Shown piece by piece: positions 46,010 through 59,985 of a stretch of DNA of 64,000 nucleotides. Under the pieces are notes generated by a model. The model was not told the DNA's origin, searched no databases, and was given only the letters and a program-made list of their open reading frames with translations. The stretch's first letter is position 1; the number at the start of each line of letters is the position of its first letter. The translations under genes were made by a program, and so were the position numbers. The DNA is from Prochlorococcus marinus str. MIT 0919 (GTDB taxonomy: Bacteria; Cyanobacteriota; Cyanobacteriia; PCC-6307; Cyanobiaceae), in contig NZ_CP114779.1 of NCBI RefSeq assembly GCF_027359375.1, positions 558,001 to 622,000 on the forward strand. The letters run 5' to 3'.

Positions 46010-47449
46010 ATGGAATTTCTAAAGTCATTAGTTGCGCAAAGTGATATGACATTAAAAGAAGTAATGATAATTATTTCTGAAAATAAGCGTGGAATATGTT
46101 TCATTTTAGATAATGAAATACTTGTTGGGTTAGTAACTGATGGTGATATCAGAAGGGCAATTGTTAGTGGGTCAATTTTAAAAGAACCTATATCTAAAAT
46201 AATGGTAAGAGATTTTATATCCCTTCCGGTTGAAAGTGATGAGAGGTTAATTAGGGAAACATTCAAGCCAAACTTAAAACTAATACCTTTAATTGATAAC
46301 AATGGGTGTCTAGTAGGCGCTGCAGATCAACTTGGCTCTCATAGGATACCCTTGTTAGAGCCTTTCCTTAAAGGCATGGAATCGCAATATGTTCTTGACT
46401 GCTTGGAAACCAATTGGATCTCTTCGCAAGGGGAATATGTAAGAAGATTTGAGCAGCAGTTTAAAGTAATGCATTCTGAAATGGAATCCTTAGCTGTATG
46501 CAATGGAACCATTGCATTACACCTTGCTCTTTTAGCTCTTGGTATCAAATCAGGGGACGAAGTAATTGTTCCGGATATTACTTTTGCAGCTACTGCAAAT
46601 TCAGTTATCTATTGTGGAGCGAAGCCTGTATTTTGCGAAATAAATAAGAAAACTTGGTGCATAGAGCCTAACGAAATAAGAAAGCTGATTACAACTAATA
46701 CTAAAGCCATTATACCTGTCCATTTATACGGTCAAGTTTGTAATATGAACGAGATTATTTCAATTGCAAAGGAAAATAAATTGCTTTTAATCGAAGATTG
46801 TGCCGAAGCATTAGGTAGTAAAAGGGATGGCAGGCCTGTTGGTACATTCGGAGATGCTGCAACATTTAGTTTTTATGGGAACAAGACCATTTCAACTGGG
46901 GAAGGAGGGATGGTTCTTTTTAAAGATAAAAGTATCGCCAGCGAAGCTAGAATTATTCGTGATCATGGAATGAAACCCGACAAAAGGTATTGGCATGAAG
47001 TGGTTGGGTATAATTATAGGTTAACAAATTTACAAGCCGCTTTAGGTGTTGCTCAGTTTGAAAATCTAGATAATATTTTAGCTCGGAAGAAAAAACTGTT
47101 AACTGAATACCAAAATAAACTAATGGGAATTAAAGGTATAAAAATGCTACCTTATATAGAAAAGAAAATTTACCATTCAAATTGGTTATATACATTGATA
47201 CTAGAAGAGAGTATTGATAGAGATAGACTTATTAGAAACTCAAGAGGAAGAGGAGTAGATATACGCCCTACATTCTATCCACTTCACAAAATGCCTCCAT
47301 ATGAAAAATATAGAAAATCATCAGGTTTAGAAATTAGCAATAATATCGCTTCAAATGGTATTTGCCTACCATCCTCGGCAAGCCTAAGAAGTGATGAGTT
47401 GATCTATGTTGTAGATATATTGAAAGATTCAATTTTGGAAATGTTTTAA
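46010..47449 (+). CDS. CBS-pair plus perosamine-synthase-like aminotransferase fusion
   Basis: A 479-residue fusion. Residues 1-113 are a CBS-domain pair (GICFILDNEILVGLVTDGDI, then LIPLIDNNGCLVGAADQ), normally a nucleotide sensor. From about 114 it is a DegT-family PLP aminotransferase with D263 (IEDCAEALGS) and Schiff-base K292 (YGNKTISTGEGG). The stretches YVLDCLETNWISSQGEYVRR, HLYGQVCNMNEI and DKRYWHEVVGYNYRLTN match GDP-perosamine synthases, which aminate the Gmd product at C4. LegC, the legionaminate-pathway aminotransferase, is a close alternative. In legionaminate clusters a CBS pair is known fused to the nucleotidyltransferase PtmE/LegX, so the domain has moved partner here. Confidence 0.85.
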   Translation: MEFLKSLVAQSDMTLKEVMIIISENKRGICFILDNEILVGLVTDGDIRRAIVSGSILKEPISKIMVRDFISLPVESDERLIRETFKPNLKLIPLIDNNGCLVGAADQLGSHRIPLLEPFLKGMESQYVLDCLETNWISSQGEYVRRFEQQFKVMHSEMESLAVCNGTIALHLALLALGIKSGDEVIVPDITFAATANSVIYCGAKPVFCEINKKTWCIEPNEIRKLITTNTKAIIPVHLYGQVCNMNEIISIAKENKLLLIEDCAEALGSKRDGRPVGTFGDAATFSFYGNKTISTGEGGMVLFKDKSIASEARIIRDHGMKPDKRYWHEVVGYNYRLTNLQAALGVAQFENLDNILARKKKLLTEYQNKLMGIKGIKMLPYIEKKIYHSNWLYTLILEESIDRDRLIRNSRGRGVDIRPTFYPLHKMPPYEKYRKSSGLEISNNIASNGICLPSSASLRSDELIYVVDILKDSILEMF

Positions 47450-51879: not shown

Positions 51880-52881
51880 CTAACTTAAATTTTCCCATTT
51901 AATAAATTTACCTCTAATTATTGATTTAATAACCTTGCGTCCTAATATTTGATTTAGTTGATCTATTGATATGCCATCTATGGCTGGCCGAATAGCATAG
52001 ATATTTTCATAATTTATATAATCTCCGATCTTTAAATCTTTCTTAGCTACAATTCCTTTTTTAGATATCTTAGACATACCAATTTCACTTTCTCTACATT
52101 TTTTACTTTCTGAGCCAAGAATATTTTCTACTCTTCTTAACTCCTCCACATATGATTTCATTTCCTTAATATCAGATGATGCGTAATGATCTGGTCCTTG
52201 GTCTGATCGGCATAAAGTAAAGTGTCTTTCAAAGAATCGTACTCCAATTGATGCACAAATAATCGCAGATGTAATTCCTTCGCTATGATCTGAAAAGCCA
52301 ATCTCATTATTAGGTAAACTATTTTTCATAGTGGTTATACATCTTGCATTAATATCAGAGTCAGGGCATGGGTAAGCTGAAACACAATGAAGGATAGTAG
52401 GGTTAATGCTTGAATAATTGACCAAGCAATCTTGGACCTCATTAATAGATGACATTCCAGTTGCTAATATAATTTTTTTTGTATTGAATGAATTCAAGCA
52501 TTTATGAATAAACTGATCCCCAAGATCTGCTGATGCAGTTTTAAACATTCGAACACCTATTTTATAAGCTTCTTCAGCAGATAGAGGATCATAAGGTGTG
52601 GTAATAAAATCTATCTTCTTATGATTTGCATGCTGTAATGCTTTTTCAAGCTTATCATCATTAAATTCCAATCGCTTAATCATTTCATAATGTGATTCCG
52701 ACTCTGAGCTGGACCTAAGTTGGTAATTAACCTTGGGTGCGTTTAAAGAAACTAACCTATTAGCATAGAAACTTTGAAATTTAACAGCGTTACAACCACA
52801 TTCAACAGCGGCGTCGATTAATTTTATTGCTTTTTCAAGTGATCCATCATGATTAACTCCAATTTCCGCAACTATATACAT
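51880..52881 (-). CDS. neuB: NeuB/LegI-type nonulosonic acid synthase
   Basis: A 333-residue enzyme that condenses phosphoenolpyruvate with a 6-carbon amino sugar to a 9-carbon sialic-acid-like sugar. The barrel opens with IVAEIGVNHDGSLEKAI, then CNAVKFQSFYANRLVS, STP-like ITTPYDPLS and ATGMSSINEVQDC. The metal site lies in ERHFTLCRSDQGPDHYASS and a C-terminal SAF domain (about 270-333, KKDLKIGDYINYENIYAIRP) follows. It is closer in these motifs to LegI/NeuB than to PseI, which is encoded at 54670. CMP activation could be by the NeuA-type enzyme at 47472. Confidence 0.9.
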   Translation of the reverse strand: MYIVAEIGVNHDGSLEKAIKLIDAAVECGCNAVKFQSFYANRLVSLNAPKVNYQLRSSSESESHYEMIKRLEFNDDKLEKALQHANHKKIDFITTPYDPLSAEEAYKIGVRMFKTASADLGDQFIHKCLNSFNTKKIILATGMSSINEVQDCLVNYSSINPTILHCVSAYPCPDSDINARCITTMKNSLPNNEIGFSDHSEGITSAIICASIGVRFFERHFTLCRSDQGPDHYASSDIKEMKSYVEELRRVENILGSESKKCRESEIGMSKISKKGIVAKKDLKIGDYINYENIYAIRPAIDGISIDQLNQILGRKVIKSIIRGKFIKWENLS

Positions 52882-52957: not shown

Positions 52958-53656
52958 TCATTCTGCTTTCTTGCTGATTACTTCATGTAATACTTCAGCT
53001 CTAAGTAAATCCTCCATTGTATCTATATCCTGCACCCGCCATCTTGGAAGAAGTAAAGGGTATCCATTGTTAAAAATATTAGCTGTTTGCTTCCACGCTG
53101 TAGGGCTCGCCCAGTAAAACTGACCAGCATCATGAAAAGATTCTGTTAAATCCTGACTTAGTACGTTGTAATTCTCAGGATAAAACATACTAGAGCGTCC
53201 ATCAGACCCTATCTTTATAGACCTCTGAATAGGGAAAGGGAAAGAGGTGGCTGTAAAAACAAATGAAGTTAAATCTATAGTGTTCAACAATTCAAAAGCT
53301 TTATAAAGATCTGATGATTTAACGAATGGTGCTGTAGCTAAAAGACAACACACTGAATTAATACTAAAAGAATTGCTTTCAAGCCATTCAATAGCCTGTC
53401 TAATGACAGGCTGAATACCTATTTGATCAGTAGCAAGATGAGACGGTCTTAAAAATGGAACTTCTGCTCCTTGTTGAAGTGCTATTTCTGCAATTTCCTT
53501 GTCATCCGTACTCACAATAACTTTTTGGAAGCATTTTGAATCTATAGCGGCCTTTATTGACCATGAGATCATAGGCTTCCCTCGAAAATTAATTACATTT
53601 TTCCTGGGGATGCGCTTGCTTCCCCCTCGGGCTGGAATTAAAGCGATATTCATCAA
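52958..53656 (-). CDS. pseF: Pseudaminic acid cytidylyltransferase
   Basis: A 232-residue CMP-sugar synthetase of the PseF type. It has LIPARGGSKRIPRKNVINFR, then MISWSIKAAIDSKCFQKVIV, STDDKEIAEIALQQGAEVPF and, in the C-terminal half, YPENYNVLSQDLTESFHDAG followed by QFYWA, a block I know from PseF rather than NeuA. It should make CMP-pseudaminic acid from the PseI product. It lies 76 bases upstream of neuB and on the same strand, so the two are one transcript even though PseI is on the opposite strand. Confidence 0.9.
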   Translation of the reverse strand: MMNIALIPARGGSKRIPRKNVINFRGKPMISWSIKAAIDSKCFQKVIVSTDDKEIAEIALQQGAEVPFLRPSHLATDQIGIQPVIRQAIEWLESNSFSINSVCCLLATAPFVKSSDLYKAFELLNTIDLTSFVFTATSFPFPIQRSIKIGSDGRSSMFYPENYNVLSQDLTESFHDAGQFYWASPTAWKQTANIFNNGYPLLLPRWRVQDIDTMEDLLRAEVLHEVISKKAE

Positions 53657-54152: not shown

Positions 54153-54584
54153 ATGATTGCCTTAGTAGAAGTAAATGTAGATGATGCAGACCACATTAAA
54201 TATTTATATACTCTTTTGCAAAATAAAAAGTTTAATATTAGCCATGAATCAATTCCAACATTTGAAGAACATATAATTTTTGTCAAGTCCTGTAAATATA
54301 GAAAATGGTACCTAATTAAAAAGATGAACAAGTATCATGGATCGGTATATTTAACAAATGAAAATACAATTGGTATCAATACAAGTTCAAATAAATATGA
54401 GGAGTATGTTGAAATAATTAAACTAGTAATTAATAATCATGTTCCATTAGCACCAATAGCATCAATTAGATCTAAGTATTTTATTATCAATGCCAATCCA
54501 GACAACTCTAACTTGATCAAGGCTTTAAAACATCTAAAAATGCATCATATTCAAAGTTCTTATGCCTATAAGACAAATTTATAA
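54153..54584 (+). CDS. GNAT-like N-acetyltransferase, degenerate acetyl-CoA loop
   Basis: A 143-residue protein of the acetyltransferase type often found in LPS loci. Family blocks visible are YLYTLLQNKKFNISHESIPT, FEEHIIFVKSCKYRKWYLI and GSVYLTNENTIGI, and near the end FIINANPDNSNLIKALKHLK. The acetyl-CoA pyrophosphate loop, normally (Q/R)xxGx(G/A) just after the EIGI strand, is missing; the protein reads GINTSSNKYEEYVEIIKLV there. It may be inactive, use another acyl donor, or only bind. A divergent promoter region precedes it and pseI follows 85 bases later. Confidence 0.7.
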   Translation: MIALVEVNVDDADHIKYLYTLLQNKKFNISHESIPTFEEHIIFVKSCKYRKWYLIKKMNKYHGSVYLTNENTIGINTSSNKYEEYVEIIKLVINNHVPLAPIASIRSKYFIINANPDNSNLIKALKHLKMHHIQSSYAYKTNL

Positions 54585-54669: not shown

Positions 54670-55725
54670 ATGTTTGAAATTAATGGTAAGGAGATAGGCC
54701 TGGAAAAACCTCCTTACATCATTGCCGAGTTATCTGCTAATCATAATGGCTCGATTGTAAAAGCAAAGGAAACGATTCGATATGCAAAGGATTGCGGGGC
54801 TGATGCAATAAAATTACAAACATATAATGCCGATTCTATGACAATAAATTGTGACATGGAAGATTTTATAATAAAGGAAGGTTTATGGGATGGGTACAAA
54901 CTTTTTGATTTATATGAAGAGGCAAGCACTCCTTATGATTGGCATCATGAATTATTTAATTTCGCAAAAGAAATAGGCATAACAATATTTTCAACTCCTT
55001 TTGACGAGGAAGCTGCTGATCTTCTAGAGAACTTGGATGTACCAGCATATAAAATTGCATCTTTTGAGTTAACTGACCTTCAATTAATTGAATATGTCGC
55101 AAAAAAAGGAAAGCCAATGCTTATTTCTACTGGCATGGCAAGCCTTGAAGAAATTTCTGAAGCTATAGATACGGCTTTTTTGGCAGGCTGTAAAGATATT
55201 CTTTTATTTCATTGTATAAGTAGCTATCCTACGCCTACTTCTGAAGCAAATATTAAAACAATTGATTTTTTAAGAGAGAAGTTTAACGTTGAAATAGGTC
55301 TTTCTGATCACACCAGATCTAACACTTCTGCTTTGGCAGCTATCTCTTTAGGAGCTGTAGCTATAGAGAAGCATTTTATAATTAGTAGGGAAGATAAGGG
55401 GCCAGATAGTGATTTTTCTATAGAGCCTAAGGAACTAAAAGAACTTGTACTTAAAACAAAGTCATGCTGGGAGGCTTTAGGAACTAAAGAATTGAAAAGA
55501 TCACCTCTTGAAATTAAAAATAAAATCTTTAGAAGGTCATTGTATTTTGTTAAAGATATAAAAGCAGGCGAAGTTATTACTAAAGATCATGTGAGAAGAA
55601 TTCGACCAGGATATGGTTTGGCTCCAAAATACTTAGATCAAATTATTAATAAAACAGTTTCTGTAGACCTTGTACGTGGTGATCGTGTTTCATGGGATGT
55701 TATAAACAAATCAAATTTTAATTGA
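54670..55725 (+). CDS. pseI: Pseudaminic acid synthase
   Basis: A 351-residue enzyme that joins phosphoenolpyruvate to 2,4-diacetamido-2,4,6-trideoxy-L-altrose to give pseudaminic acid. PseI-type blocks: IIAELSANHNGSIVKAKETI, CGADAIKLQTYNADSMTIN, EDFIIKEGLWDGYKLFDLYE, FSTPFDEEAADLLENLDVPA and YKIASFELTDLQLIEYVAKK. Metal and catalytic residues are in KHFIISREDKGPDSDFS, and a SAF domain closes the protein. It is clearly a different subtype from the NeuB-type enzyme at 51880. The corresponding early genes pseB, pseC and pseG are not seen in the window. Confidence 0.93.
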   Translation: MFEINGKEIGLEKPPYIIAELSANHNGSIVKAKETIRYAKDCGADAIKLQTYNADSMTINCDMEDFIIKEGLWDGYKLFDLYEEASTPYDWHHELFNFAKEIGITIFSTPFDEEAADLLENLDVPAYKIASFELTDLQLIEYVAKKGKPMLISTGMASLEEISEAIDTAFLAGCKDILLFHCISSYPTPTSEANIKTIDFLREKFNVEIGLSDHTRSNTSALAAISLGAVAIEKHFIISREDKGPDSDFSIEPKELKELVLKTKSCWEALGTKELKRSPLEIKNKIFRRSLYFVKDIKAGEVITKDHVRRIRPGYGLAPKYLDQIINKTVSVDLVRGDRVSWDVINKSNFN

Positions 55726-55744: not shown

Positions 55745-56425
55745 CTACTCTTTATTTTTATAGGATATTTTAATTTTAGCTGATATCTCGTTATTCTTAA
55801 TTTCAGCATTAGTGAATTCAATCTTATATTGACCAAAACTAATATAAGAACTTTTATAATCTTTTCCATCAACCATTCTTATCCTGTCATAAATCTCATC
55901 TAAAGAAAATGCCGAATTTAATTCGTTATCCTTATAGCTAAGTCTTTTAAAAGTATATGGATCTCCTTCTTGATCTATTGGGGTAGGTTTATTAATACAA
56001 ATATATATAATCATATCCTCTATGAGTGCACCTATCCGCGCAAAAATGCTATCGATATTACCTTTCAAGGAAACTTCTTGTTTGCAATAAATTGGTCCAG
56101 CATCCAAAGTCTCATTGATTCTTAAAGCACATACCGGTGATTTTTTAAAGCCCTTTAAAATTAGGTTTTGAACTGGTGAGCCACCTCTCCCGTATGGAAG
56201 AGGTGCTGTATGAAATAATATGCATTCATATCTATTATAAATTTCTGAATCTATTTTCCAGCTCCAATGTGGAAAGAAAATATAACGTGGATTAATTTTT
56301 TCTAAGTTCTCTATTGAAAGATCTGCTCTGTCAGAAATATAATCTATCGATAATTGCCTATATTCCTCTGATTTAGGAAGATTTAAAAACCAATCTTTTG
56401 ATGTTGCTACTACATAATTCATCAT
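55745..56425 (-). CDS. Formyltransferase-fold protein, probable sugar N-formyltransferase
   Basis: A 226-residue protein with a formyl-THF-type transferase core. FFPHWSWKIDSEI, then ILFHTAPLPYGRGGSPVQNL with the catalytic-position His, then LRINETLDAGPIYCKQEVSL with the conserved Asp in LDAGPI. The Asn usually two residues before the His is Leu here, a deviation I also associate with the FHxxxLPxGRGGSP subgroup found in nonulosonate loci. Its ATG overlaps the stop of the deacetylase gene by four bases. Together they could replace an N-acetyl by an N-formyl group on an island amino sugar. Confidence 0.8.
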   Translation of the reverse strand: MMNYVVATSKDWFLNLPKSEEYRQLSIDYISDRADLSIENLEKINPRYIFFPHWSWKIDSEIYNRYECILFHTAPLPYGRGGSPVQNLILKGFKKSPVCALRINETLDAGPIYCKQEVSLKGNIDSIFARIGALIEDMIIYICINKPTPIDQEGDPYTFKRLSYKDNELNSAFSLDEIYDRIRMVDGKDYKSSYISFGQYKIEFTNAEIKNNEISAKIKISYKNKE

Positions 56426-57111
56426 CTTTCTATTTTCCTAATGATCTCGAAGGCCTCTGCATAAGATAGACCAACTTGATTACCCCTATATTTAGCCAAG
56501 TTTTCTATGCCGGCTATGGATCTTGAGTGAGGTGATTTGCGAATTTCGTTAGAATATATTTGTAATGCACATAATTTTTTGTTCCACCATTCGGAAATAT
56601 TTATATACAAATTTGGAGAAAATGAATTTGTTATGGATTTGTGTCCATAGTCTGTAGAAGATGGAACTTCAAATGTGCGTATTTCTTGCCAGATTTCTTT
56701 GTCCTGTGGCCTAAATGCAGTGAATGTAGCTTGGTTTACTACCCTATGATCAATATTCAAATCGGCTGAGCTATGAGTATAAATTAAATATGGCTCTATT
56801 TCCTTCTTTGCTTCTTCAATGAATTTAATAATATTGAGAACTGGAACTGAATCCATAGCATTATCAGGGAAATTTCCACCTTTTAACCATTTGAACCCTA
56901 GAACATTAGATGCTTCATATGCTGCTTTAGCTCTAATATCGATTTCCTCTTGTTTGACATTTTCTCTTGCTCCTATCCCATTGGTCATAGATAAAGCGTA
57001 AACTTTGTCTCCATTAGATACATGCTTAGCTATCGTTGCGCCTAGTCCTAGAGTTTCATCATCTGTATGCGCTACTATGATTAGAACTTTATTATTAGTA
57101 TCATTGTTCAT
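56422..57111 (-). CDS. LmbE/PIG-L-family N-deacetylase
   Basis: A 229-residue zinc deacetylase. The N-terminal motif AHTDDE (residues 14-19) holds the first zinc ligands and catalytic Asp, and THSSADLNIDHRVV supplies the distal histidine. The family acts on N-acetylglucosamine-containing sugars and related compounds. It overlaps the formyltransferase gene by four bases and is upstream of it, matching a remove-acetyl then add-formyl sequence. Substrate is likely a nonulosonic acid or its precursor, by context. Confidence 0.85.
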   Translation of the reverse strand: MNNDTNNKVLIIVAHTDDETLGLGATIAKHVSNGDKVYALSMTNGIGARENVKQEEIDIRAKAAYEASNVLGFKWLKGGNFPDNAMDSVPVLNIIKFIEEAKKEIEPYLIYTHSSADLNIDHRVVNQATFTAFRPQDKEIWQEIRTFEVPSSTDYGHKSITNSFSPNLYINISEWWNKKLCALQIYSNEIRKSPHSRSIAGIENLAKYRGNQVGLSYAEAFEIIRKIER

Positions 57112-57424: not shown

Positions 57425-57889
57425 TTAAATAGATAATTCAAATATAGTTGTTTGAGAATTTAATACAGAAGAAATAAAGCCACAAGAAGTGAAGATCCTG
57501 ATACTTGATAAGTTATGATTTTTAATTTCAGCTCTAATCAATCTACAAGATTTTACTTCTTGTGAAAATATTTTTATAGATTTACCAAGTAAAGCTTTAC
57601 CAATACCTTGGCCCCTATTGCTTGGAGAGATATTAATACTAATATCAAAAGACTTATTAGTCATAAAGCAATTATCAAATCTAACAACTCCTATTGGTAA
57701 ATCCTTTAGAATCCCAACATATAACTTTCTAGAATTATCCTCTATAAGCTTTTCATACCAAATCATATGTTCTTCCCATGAGATTTCATCCTCACTAATA
57801 AACATTCTTCGAGTGAGTGGATCATTACGCCACTGCCATATCACTTTAGAATGTTCATATCCAGCTTTGACTACTTCTATTCCACTCAT
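57425..57889 (-). CDS. GNAT-family acetyltransferase (PseH/PseG-tail-like)
   Basis: A 154-residue N-acetyltransferase. The start IWQWRNDPLTRRMF is the W-R-N-D-P block of GNATs acting on amino sugars, followed by EHMIWYEKLI, VVRFDNCF, and an intact acetyl-CoA loop SPSNRGQGIGKALL, with IFTSCGFIS near the end. In pseudaminate clusters such a domain is PseH or the C-terminal half of PseG, which transfers acetyl to the 4-amino group. It is a good candidate for that step, unlike the GNAT at 54153 with its missing loop. Confidence 0.8.
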   Translation of the reverse strand: MSGIEVVKAGYEHSKVIWQWRNDPLTRRMFISEDEISWEEHMIWYEKLIEDNSRKLYVGILKDLPIGVVRFDNCFMTNKSFDISINISPSNRGQGIGKALLGKSIKIFSQEVKSCRLIRAEIKNHNLSSIRIFTSCGFISSVLNSQTTIFELSI

Positions 57890-58239: not shown

Positions 58240-59985
58240 TTGCTAATTCTTGGCCTAAATGCTTTCGAAATTAATTCCTCAGCAGCTTTTATTAAAGATG
58301 GGGAAGTACTTTTTGCTATGTGTGAGGAAAGATTTAGCCGAATTAAGAGAGATAAATCATTTCCATTTAATTCAATAAATGCTGGGTTGTCTCATCTGGA
58401 AATTAATTTTTCTGAAATTGATGCAATTGCTGTTGGCTGGAATCCTATTGTAGAAGCTACTAAAATAAATGGTATTTTGCCTAACAGGCCAAGAGAACTG
58501 TACTTTTATAAATTAGTTGAAGCTTTTTTATCACAATCAAATAATTTAGATAAAGATTTAGATTGGTCTATGATTAGGACATCAGGAGAAAGCATTCCTG
58601 ATATCTACTTTGTTAGACATCATTTAGCTCATGCTAGCAATGCAATATATCAATCACCCTTTAAAGAAGGAGACTTTTTAAGTCTTGATTTTATGGGTGA
58701 AAGAGAAACTGGAATCTACGGCTTGTTTGATCAAAGTAATATCAACAAGAAATACATATCAAAGCAACCATCTTCAACAGGGGCTTTTTATGCAGCTATT
58801 ACTGAATTACTAGGATATAAGAGTGATTCTGATGAATGGAAGGTAATGGCATTAAGTGCTTGTGAATCGGATAAAAATAAGGTTGATAAGTATATTCAAG
58901 TTTTTAAGGAAAGTACACTTGAAGAAGGCATTGCGCCATTTTTAAAAAATGAATACTTCAATACAGATCAGCCAAGAGAAAAGTACCTAACAACCAAACT
59001 GCTAAGAGAAAAGCTAGATTGCCCAGAACTTATTAATAATAGGAATGATCTAGAAATAAGAAGTTGGCAGATTGATGTAGCAACAGCAATGCAAACTTTT
59101 ATCACTGATTATACATTTAGAGCTCTTAAAAAAGTATCAAAAGAACACAATTCAAACCGAAAAAATATTTGCTTGTCAGGTGGCTTCTTTATGAATTGTG
59201 TTTTTAACGGTCAGTTAGAAAGATCATCATTATATAAGAACGTATTTATATCACAATCACCTGCCGATTTAGGTAACTCAATTGGGTCTGCGATGTTTAC
59301 ATACCATAATATACTATATGGGAAAAGAAGGATTAGAGATTCTCAGGTTTTATTTACTGGGAAGTCATTATCAGAAGAACCATCAAGAATAATGGATAAA
59401 TTCCAAATACCGTATAAATCATATAAAGAACAAAAAAGCTTAGTAGAAGATATTTATAAATACTTAAAAGAGAATAAGGTAATAGCCATTTGTAGTGGCA
59501 AATCAGAATTTGGTGAGAGGGCTCTTGGTGCCAGAAGTATTATTTGTATTGCATCAAAATCGGAAAACAAAGCCTTGATCAACGAAAAAATAAAATATAG
59601 AGAGGATTACAGACCTTTCGCTCCAGTGTGTTTAAAGAGCCAAGCTTCTAAATATTTTGAAGTTGAAGATGGATACTCTTGTGCAGCAATGGAGAAGGTT
59701 GCATACGTAAAGGAAGAGTTTGTAAAAGATTTGCCCGCTATTACTCATTCTGACGGTAGTGCTAGGCTTCAAACTATTGACGATGATACTGAAGGTCTAT
59801 TGGTGAGTATTTTAAAATTTATGTATGATCAGAAGGAAATACCAGTATTAATAAATACTTCATTCAACCTAAATGGTGAGCCAAATGTTGAAACAGAAAT
59901 AGATGCTATAAGGACTTTCTTTACTAGTGGTCTAGATGTTCTGGTAATAAGTAATTTAATAATCTTAAAAAACAATCTGATCTAA
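58240..59985 (+). CDS. NodU/CmcH-family carbamoyltransferase
   Basis: A 581-residue O-carbamoyltransferase that uses carbamoyl phosphate and ATP to carbamoylate a hydroxyl of a sugar or antibiotic. The N-terminal Kae1-like domain opens LILGLNAFEINSSAAFIKDG, with FVRHHLAHASNAIYQSPF (metal-binding histidines) and LSLDFMGERETG. The C-terminal domain has ICLSGGFFMNCVFNGQL, GKSEFGERALGARSI, INEKIKYREDYRPFAPV and PVLINTSFNLNGEPNV, the standard set. It starts at TTG, since LILGLN must be included. It stands at the end of the island and may decorate the same glycan. Confidence 0.9.
   Translation: MLILGLNAFEINSSAAFIKDGEVLFAMCEERFSRIKRDKSFPFNSINAGLSHLEINFSEIDAIAVGWNPIVEATKINGILPNRPRELYFYKLVEAFLSQSNNLDKDLDWSMIRTSGESIPDIYFVRHHLAHASNAIYQSPFKEGDFLSLDFMGERETGIYGLFDQSNINKKYISKQPSSTGAFYAAITELLGYKSDSDEWKVMALSACESDKNKVDKYIQVFKESTLEEGIAPFLKNEYFNTDQPREKYLTTKLLREKLDCPELINNRNDLEIRSWQIDVATAMQTFITDYTFRALKKVSKEHNSNRKNICLSGGFFMNCVFNGQLERSSLYKNVFISQSPADLGNSIGSAMFTYHNILYGKRRIRDSQVLFTGKSLSEEPSRIMDKFQIPYKSYKEQKSLVEDIYKYLKENKVIAICSGKSEFGERALGARSIICIASKSENKALINEKIKYREDYRPFAPVCLKSQASKYFEVEDGYSCAAMEKVAYVKEEFVKDLPAITHSDGSARLQTIDDDTEGLLVSILKFMYDQKEIPVLINTSFNLNGEPNVETEIDAIRTFFTSGLDVLVISNLIILKNNLI

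Follow-up and report, generated by a model that had tools for sequence, protein, structure and literature searches.

Pseudaminic and legionaminic acids that vary in their N-acyl groups at C-5 and C-7 decorate flagella, capsules, and O-antigens. The N-5 nitrogen of pseudaminic acid (Pse) is that of the C-2 acetamido group of UDP-GlcNAc; PseC introduces the amine that becomes N-7, and PseH acylates it. Variation at N-7 has an enzyme logic (PseH, PseJ); for N-5 we know of no established route. A widespread two-gene module predicting N-5 formylation would make this part of glycan chemistry readable from genomes, and in marine picocyanobacteria N-5 formylation would change the surface met by phages.

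One of the closest described systems is PseJ (PDB 6ci2, 6ci4, 6ci5, and 6edk), which reportedly makes a 7-formamido derivative of Pse. It resembles the formyltransferase studied here in its formyltransferase fold and its occurrence in pse operons. However, the two are distant (about 5e-6 with the family profile, compared with 1e-86 for 1ZGH), PseJ orthologs keep the canonical N-x-H that the present family lacks, and the PseJ route requires no deacetylase. The structure 1ZGH from Clostridium thermocellum, deposited as a “methionyl-tRNA formyltransferase,” belongs to the same subfamily as the present protein and shares its missing Asn; the name is a depositor annotation, and we know of no shown function for this protein. 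The sugar formyltransferases ArnA, VioF, WbkC, and WlaRD have the same fold and presumed THF-dependent chemistry, but there the amine comes from an aminotransferase, whereas here we propose that it comes from a deacetylase. The LmbE-like enzymes BshB, MshB, and diacetylchitobiose deacetylase share the HxDD…H metal site and GlcNAc-type substrates with the present PIG-L protein, but belong to a different pathway.

As the initial annotation remarked, formylated nonulosonates are known chemically: these include Pse5Ac7Fo, which occurs in Pseudoalteromonas distincta (PMC3210612, PMC7281560), and 5-N-formyl-legionaminic acid (PMC6137143). A non-acetyl group at N-5 is also known from Psychrobacter marincola, whose Pse carries a lactyl group there (PMC7281560). 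The 5-N-formyl-legionaminic acid is found in Halorubrum sp. PV6, in which the predicted formyltransferase gene HrrPV6_1050 is co-transcribed (PMC6137143). This route, likened to ours by description, also places formyl at N-5 of a nonulosonate, but it concerns legionaminic acid in an archaeon, and no deacetylase is mentioned (PMC6137143). Formyltransferase genes in flagellin glycosylation islands have been noted with no substrates assigned (PMC5109656, PMC4875605). Our search of the open-access literature returned no description of a deacetylase–formyltransferase pair or of an N-5 swap route in Pse biosynthesis, which is weak evidence of absence. N-formyl nonulosonates and the 7-formylating PseJ are already known; the proposed N-5 swap module is apparently undescribed, is built from known kinds of enzymes, and is not a new kind of system.

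The Gene Pair

The window, a stretch of 64,000 nucleotides from Prochlorococcus marinus str. MIT 0919, carries the following features:

55745..56425, minus strand: formyltransferase-fold protein of the 1ZGH subfamily (226 aa; Formyl_trans_C_2 and 1zgh matches)
56422..57111, minus strand: PIG-L/LmbE-type N-deacetylase (229 aa; Pfam PIG-L, 3.4e-21)
56422..56425, minus strand: ATGA overlap of the deacetylase stop and the formyltransferase start, read from the sequence

An ORF check of the window recovered both genes at the positions and on the strand given by the initial annotation, together with the four-base overlap that it described (ATGA at 56425..56422). An alternative in-frame ATG in the formyltransferase would give a one-base TGATG overlap instead; either version is an ordinary coupled junction. 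The motifs AHTDDE, DHRVV (listed initially as HRVV), and FHTAPLPYGRGGSP are present and all lie on conserved alignment columns. The PIG-L product scores 76.5 bits, above the Pfam gathering cut-off of 28.2. Its partner exceeds the cut-off for Formyl_trans_C_2 (3.6e-14; 52.5 bits against 27) and falls just under that for Formyl_trans_N (24.4 bits against 26.1). Neither protein reaches any NCBIfam cut-off, and the match of PIG-L to the BshB1 model (5.6e-19, 68.7 bits) is far under the value of 182.5. Two identities were rejected for the formyltransferase. It is not the housekeeping Fmt, as it reaches 40.5 bits on TIGR00460 against a cut-off of 201.5, and a separate genomic fmt scores 224.9. It is not a PseJ ortholog either, as 6ci2 and 6ci4 are not among its matches at E ≤ 0.001, and true orthologs in sister loci match at 7e-43 and 2e-28.

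The Surrounding Island and the Pse Pathway

The neighboring genes relevant to the assignment of the sugar are:

54670..55725, plus strand: pseI, pseudaminic acid synthase (TIGR03586, 482.5 bits; cut-off 340.25)
52958..53656, minus strand: pseF, pseudaminic acid cytidylyltransferase (TIGR03584, 285.7 bits; cut-off 205.7)
57425..57889, minus strand: PseH-like GNAT acetyltransferase, candidate N-7 acetyltransferase (TIGR03585, Acetyltransf_1)
51880..52881, minus strand: second NeuB-family synthase (TIGR03569, 298.8 bits; below the cut-off of 399.65)

The sugar served by the pair is most likely pseudaminic acid, which refines the earlier reading of an unspecified nonulosonate, since PseI, PseF, PseB, and PseC all exceed their NCBIfam cut-offs in this genome. 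The pseB and pseC genes are located about 0.95 Mb from the pair (G000:C1:1567713-1569886). The PseH-like protein is encoded upstream of the pair on the same strand; it matches the PseH model TIGR03585 at 5.4e-20 (72 bits, under the cut-off of 93.1) and Pfam Acetyltransf_1 at 1.4e-10, and the PseH-type protein of the compact [Synechococcus] NIES-970 operon described below scores 47.6 on the same PseH model. No match to PseG was found in the genome, either with the NIES-970 PseG query or with TIGR03590 (best score 12.4 bits against a cut-off of 153.55); the pathway may therefore lack a step or rely on a different hydrolase.

The second NeuB reaches only 190.6 bits on the PseI model and probably serves a different nonulosonate. 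Together with a LegC-like aminotransferase and another CMP-transferase, it suggests that the island makes more than one nonulosonate. The LegC-like aminotransferase (window 46010-47449) has an N-terminal stretch matching KpsF/GutQ-type proteins within a single ORF. A NodU/TobZ-like carbamoyltransferase gene lies near PIG-L both in the window (58240-59985) and in the surveyed locus L129 (10102-11847), where PIG-L is 70% identical and the formyltransferase is absent within the 19.5 kb read. Adjoining pseB and pseC are a HisH-like gene and a gene that joins a WbuX-type N-acetyl sugar amidotransferase to a HisF-like domain (L109 6009-8694; G000:C1 about 1564508-1567193); these suggest that a sugar of the Pse pathway bears an acetamidino group.

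Distribution and Co-occurrence of the Pair

In the species-representative collection, the formyltransferase has 504 relatives; we read the best 80. These 80 include Prochlorococcus, SAR86, SAR116, Clostridia, Vibrio, Colwellia, Bacteroidota, Desulfobacterota, Planctomycetes, and candidate phyla, and within the cyanobacteria the gene is rare (7 of 386 genomes at 1e-15). Judged by these relatives, the module is widespread and no cyanobacterial peculiarity. The initial annotation had considered a dedicated two-enzyme route in a cyanobacterium as new; such a route would be no cyanobacterial novelty, as the gene pair is found in many phyla. The plasmid and phage collections gave a single informative record, a [Synechococcus] NIES-970 plasmid with the compact run pseB-pseC-cytidylyltransferase-pseG-(hypothetical)-pseH-like-formyltransferase-PIG-L-pseI.

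A same-strand PIG-L gene accompanies the formyltransferase in 87 of 90 loci and is immediately adjacent in 66. In the three loci without it, the sequence stops short: fewer than 160 bases follow the gene in L043 and L067, and L019 has just 1.5 kb of flanking DNA. When more of the L019 source genome (G489) was read, as L140, PIG-L did appear. The association of the two genes is not due to chance. The distances of the two proteins are correlated as well (r = 0.64; permutation maximum 0.12). Adjacent genes overlap in 52 of the 66 cases, by exactly four bases in 21 (longest-ORF starts). The initial annotation had also seen meaning in the encoding of the genes in the order of reaction, which is true at this locus; across relatives the argument fails, as the deacetylase comes first in only 25 of the 87 loci and the formyltransferase in 62. 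The initial annotation had proposed a check for the same pair beside pseI or neuB in other genomes: PseI is nearby in 79 of the 90 loci, and pseB, pseC, and pseI occur together in 51. Most of the 90 loci are pseudaminic acid operons, from many phyla; 11 show no PseI within the sequence read.

The converse dependence does not hold. PIG-L is present in 18 of 201 Cyanobiaceae genomes searched; the formyltransferase is also present in seven of these and was not seen in the other 11, either by genome searches or in the stretch around PIG-L. A rule that PIG-L is always accompanied by the formyltransferase is thus false. In some of those 11 genomes, PIG-L lies next to a fusion of PseG with a short formyltransferase-like protein, next to an ArnA-like formyltransferase that belongs to a LegC/NeuB/NeuC cluster, next to WbqC-like genes, or next to no recognised acyl enzyme. 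The dependence appears to be one-way: the formyltransferase needs PIG-L, and PIG-L has other partners too. This pattern fits a role of PIG-L in exposing the amine, which the formyltransferase would cap as one enzyme among several, and PIG-L alone does not predict formylation. The cluster with the ArnA-like protein (L139 8912-13134, G518) combines LegC, NeuB, and NeuC with PIG-L and WbuX/HisH/HisF-like genes, and is possibly a parallel swap module for legionaminic acid.

More distant relatives of the formyltransferase (35% identity) were observed in IMG/VR viral contigs (L009-L012, 5001-5705). Their neighbors are ribonucleotide reductase-like and 3'-5' exonuclease-like genes, no PIG-L was seen beside them, and a role in nucleotide modification is possible.

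Catalytic Sites and Fold

The metal motif of the LmbE-like superfamily consists of HXD1D2 and a further His, and the characterised enzymes act on substrates with a GlcNAc-type N-acyl group (PMC4101496). In the present PIG-L protein, it corresponds to His15-Thr16-Asp17-Asp18 and His122, with a spacer of about 103 that lies within the required range of 97-148; His15, Asp17, Asp18, and His122 are invariant in 75 relatives.

The formyltransferase keeps His72 and Asp108, both invariant in 75 relatives, and the Gly-rich loop. In every one of these relatives, V, I, C, L, or A stands in place of the canonical Asn of the N-x-H…D set, and 1ZGH likewise lacks this Asn. His53-Trp54-Ser55 and Gln86-Asn87 mark the family and are invariant or nearly so. 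The closest solved protein is 1zgh (7e-56; 1.1e-86 with the family profile), to which the AlphaFold2 model (pLDDT 92) aligns with a TM score of 0.90; the next fold matches are HypX, followed by VioF, Fmt, and ArnA. Taken together with the model, these features make it likely that the protein works as a formyltransferase, albeit outside the canonical class defined by Asn-x-His…Asp. The formyl step is likely yet not secure, and it is the weakest link of our explanation.

Probable Assignment to N-5

According to our analysis, the pair is probably an N-5 acyl-swap module of the Pse pathway, in which PIG-L deacetylates, its partner formylates, and N-7 is served separately. Among the 51 loci with pseB, pseC, and pseI, PseH is the only N-7 candidate in 24, a PseJ ortholog or the short formyltransferase-like protein in 20 (four of them orthologs of the solved PseJ), both types occur in two, and neither in five. 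Exactly one candidate class is thus present in 44 of the 51 full operons; this distribution gives a Fisher value of 1.2e-7, uncorrected for the relatedness of the loci. L021, L024, L071, L072, and L073 contain PseJ orthologs (matches to 6ci2 at 7e-43 and 2e-28) in addition to the pair. As the pse operons retain the pair although N-7 has its own enzyme, the pair would act on N-5; this nitrogen is acetylated from the outset, so a deacetylase would have to act first.

In the proposed mechanism, PIG-L would hydrolyse the N-5 acetyl group derived from the C-2 acetamido of UDP-GlcNAc, and the resulting amine would then be formylated by the partner, with N10-formyltetrahydrofolate as the most likely donor. 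A separate enzyme would acylate N-7: PseH (acetyl) in this organism, and PseJ or the short formyltransferase-like protein elsewhere. The predicted product here is 5-N-formyl-7-N-acetyl-Pse (Pse5Fo7Ac), and that of operons with PseJ is 5,7-di-N-formyl-Pse. The usual position of the pair beside pseI suggests that it would act around the PseI step, on the sugar immediately before or at that step, or else on the CMP-sugar. The functional pair of the initial annotation is real, and no other reading agrees with the co-occurrence data as well as its exchange of acetyl for formyl on a nonulosonate; these data support a narrower version, with 5-N-formyl derivatives of Pse as the predicted outcome.

Three other explanations were weighed against this one. 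PIG-L might free the N-5 amine for a partner that adds another group or is no formyltransferase. The loss of the canonical Asn throughout the family, its specific His53-Trp54-Ser55 and Gln86-Asn87 marks, and the proximity of its fold to HypX structures, which are not sugar enzymes, would agree with this; however, the retained His72, Asp108, and Gly-rich loop and a fold typical of THF-binding formyltransferases make it unlikely. That the pair acts on N-7, with PIG-L stripping the acetyl group added by PseH and the partner replacing it with formyl, is in our view quite unlikely. Although 7-N-formyl-Pse is a known natural sugar, acetylating and then deacetylating one nitrogen would be futile; a formyltransferase in place of PseH would suffice, as with PseJ, and PseJ orthologs coexist with the pair.

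We regard it as very unlikely that the target of the pair is not Pse but a different sugar of the island, for instance a glycan-linked hexosamine or the sugar made by the second NeuB. The genes for the second NeuB, the LegC-like protein, and the additional CMP-transferase would allow for this, as would the loci in which no PseI was read and the related PIG-L in the LegC/NeuB cluster of L139, but pseI is the recurrent partner across phyla, in compact pse operons. A broader version of the N-5 swap is conceivable and is offered tentatively: PIG-L could be a general nonulosonate “N-5 opener” for interchangeable acyl enzymes, with a formyltransferase subfamily that uses THF without the canonical Asn and with 5,7-di-N-formyl-Pse formed alongside PseJ. 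If true, such an opener would explain known N-5 variants that lack established enzymes.

Some operons depart from the simple scheme of two separately served positions. Five full operons carry no recognised N-7 enzyme. PseH and the short formyltransferase-like protein occur together in about six loci (L019/L140, L034, L094, L100, L134, and possibly L095), which is contrary to the prediction of that scheme. A methyltransferase-like gene is located between pseG and the formyltransferase gene in L097 (9197-9985) and directly before the latter in L036 (8955-9743) and L045 (9211-9948); PseH or PseJ was not recognised in these three operons, and N- or O-methylation is a possible role for the methyltransferase-like genes.

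Associated Small Proteins

The short formyltransferase-like subfamily (about 215 aa; e.g., L054 9242-9889, with about 25 further similar genes) has an NLVVHESALP motif, also lacks the canonical Asn, and was counted apart from the studied formyltransferase by its own profile. It usually replaces PseH, and is fused to PseG in L018, L055, and L134 and to PIG-L in L100; in L134 the fusion comprises PseG, PseH, and the short protein and stands beside PIG-L. A firm assignment of the short protein to N-7 was dropped because about six loci carry it together with PseH.

One further gene of the window encodes a small GNAT-fold protein:

54153..54584, plus strand: 143-aa GNAT-fold protein (AlphaFold2 model, pLDDT 91)

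Its Foldseek matches are GNATs, including PseH of C. jejuni (4xpk/4xpl) at 5e-4, and no recognisable RGxGxG acetyl-CoA loop was found in the aligned sequences. In our survey, 10 of the 23 PseG-less loci carry the protein, compared with none of the 56 that have PseG, and it may be connected with the absent PseG step. Not all marine loci lacking PseG have it (L029 does not), and because the carriers are related, the absence of PseG from them may be a feature of their clade. In L024 and L032 (10001-11134), the 143-aa protein forms a fusion with the formyltransferase, and in L026 (10642-11520) and L027 (10642-11514) with PseH.
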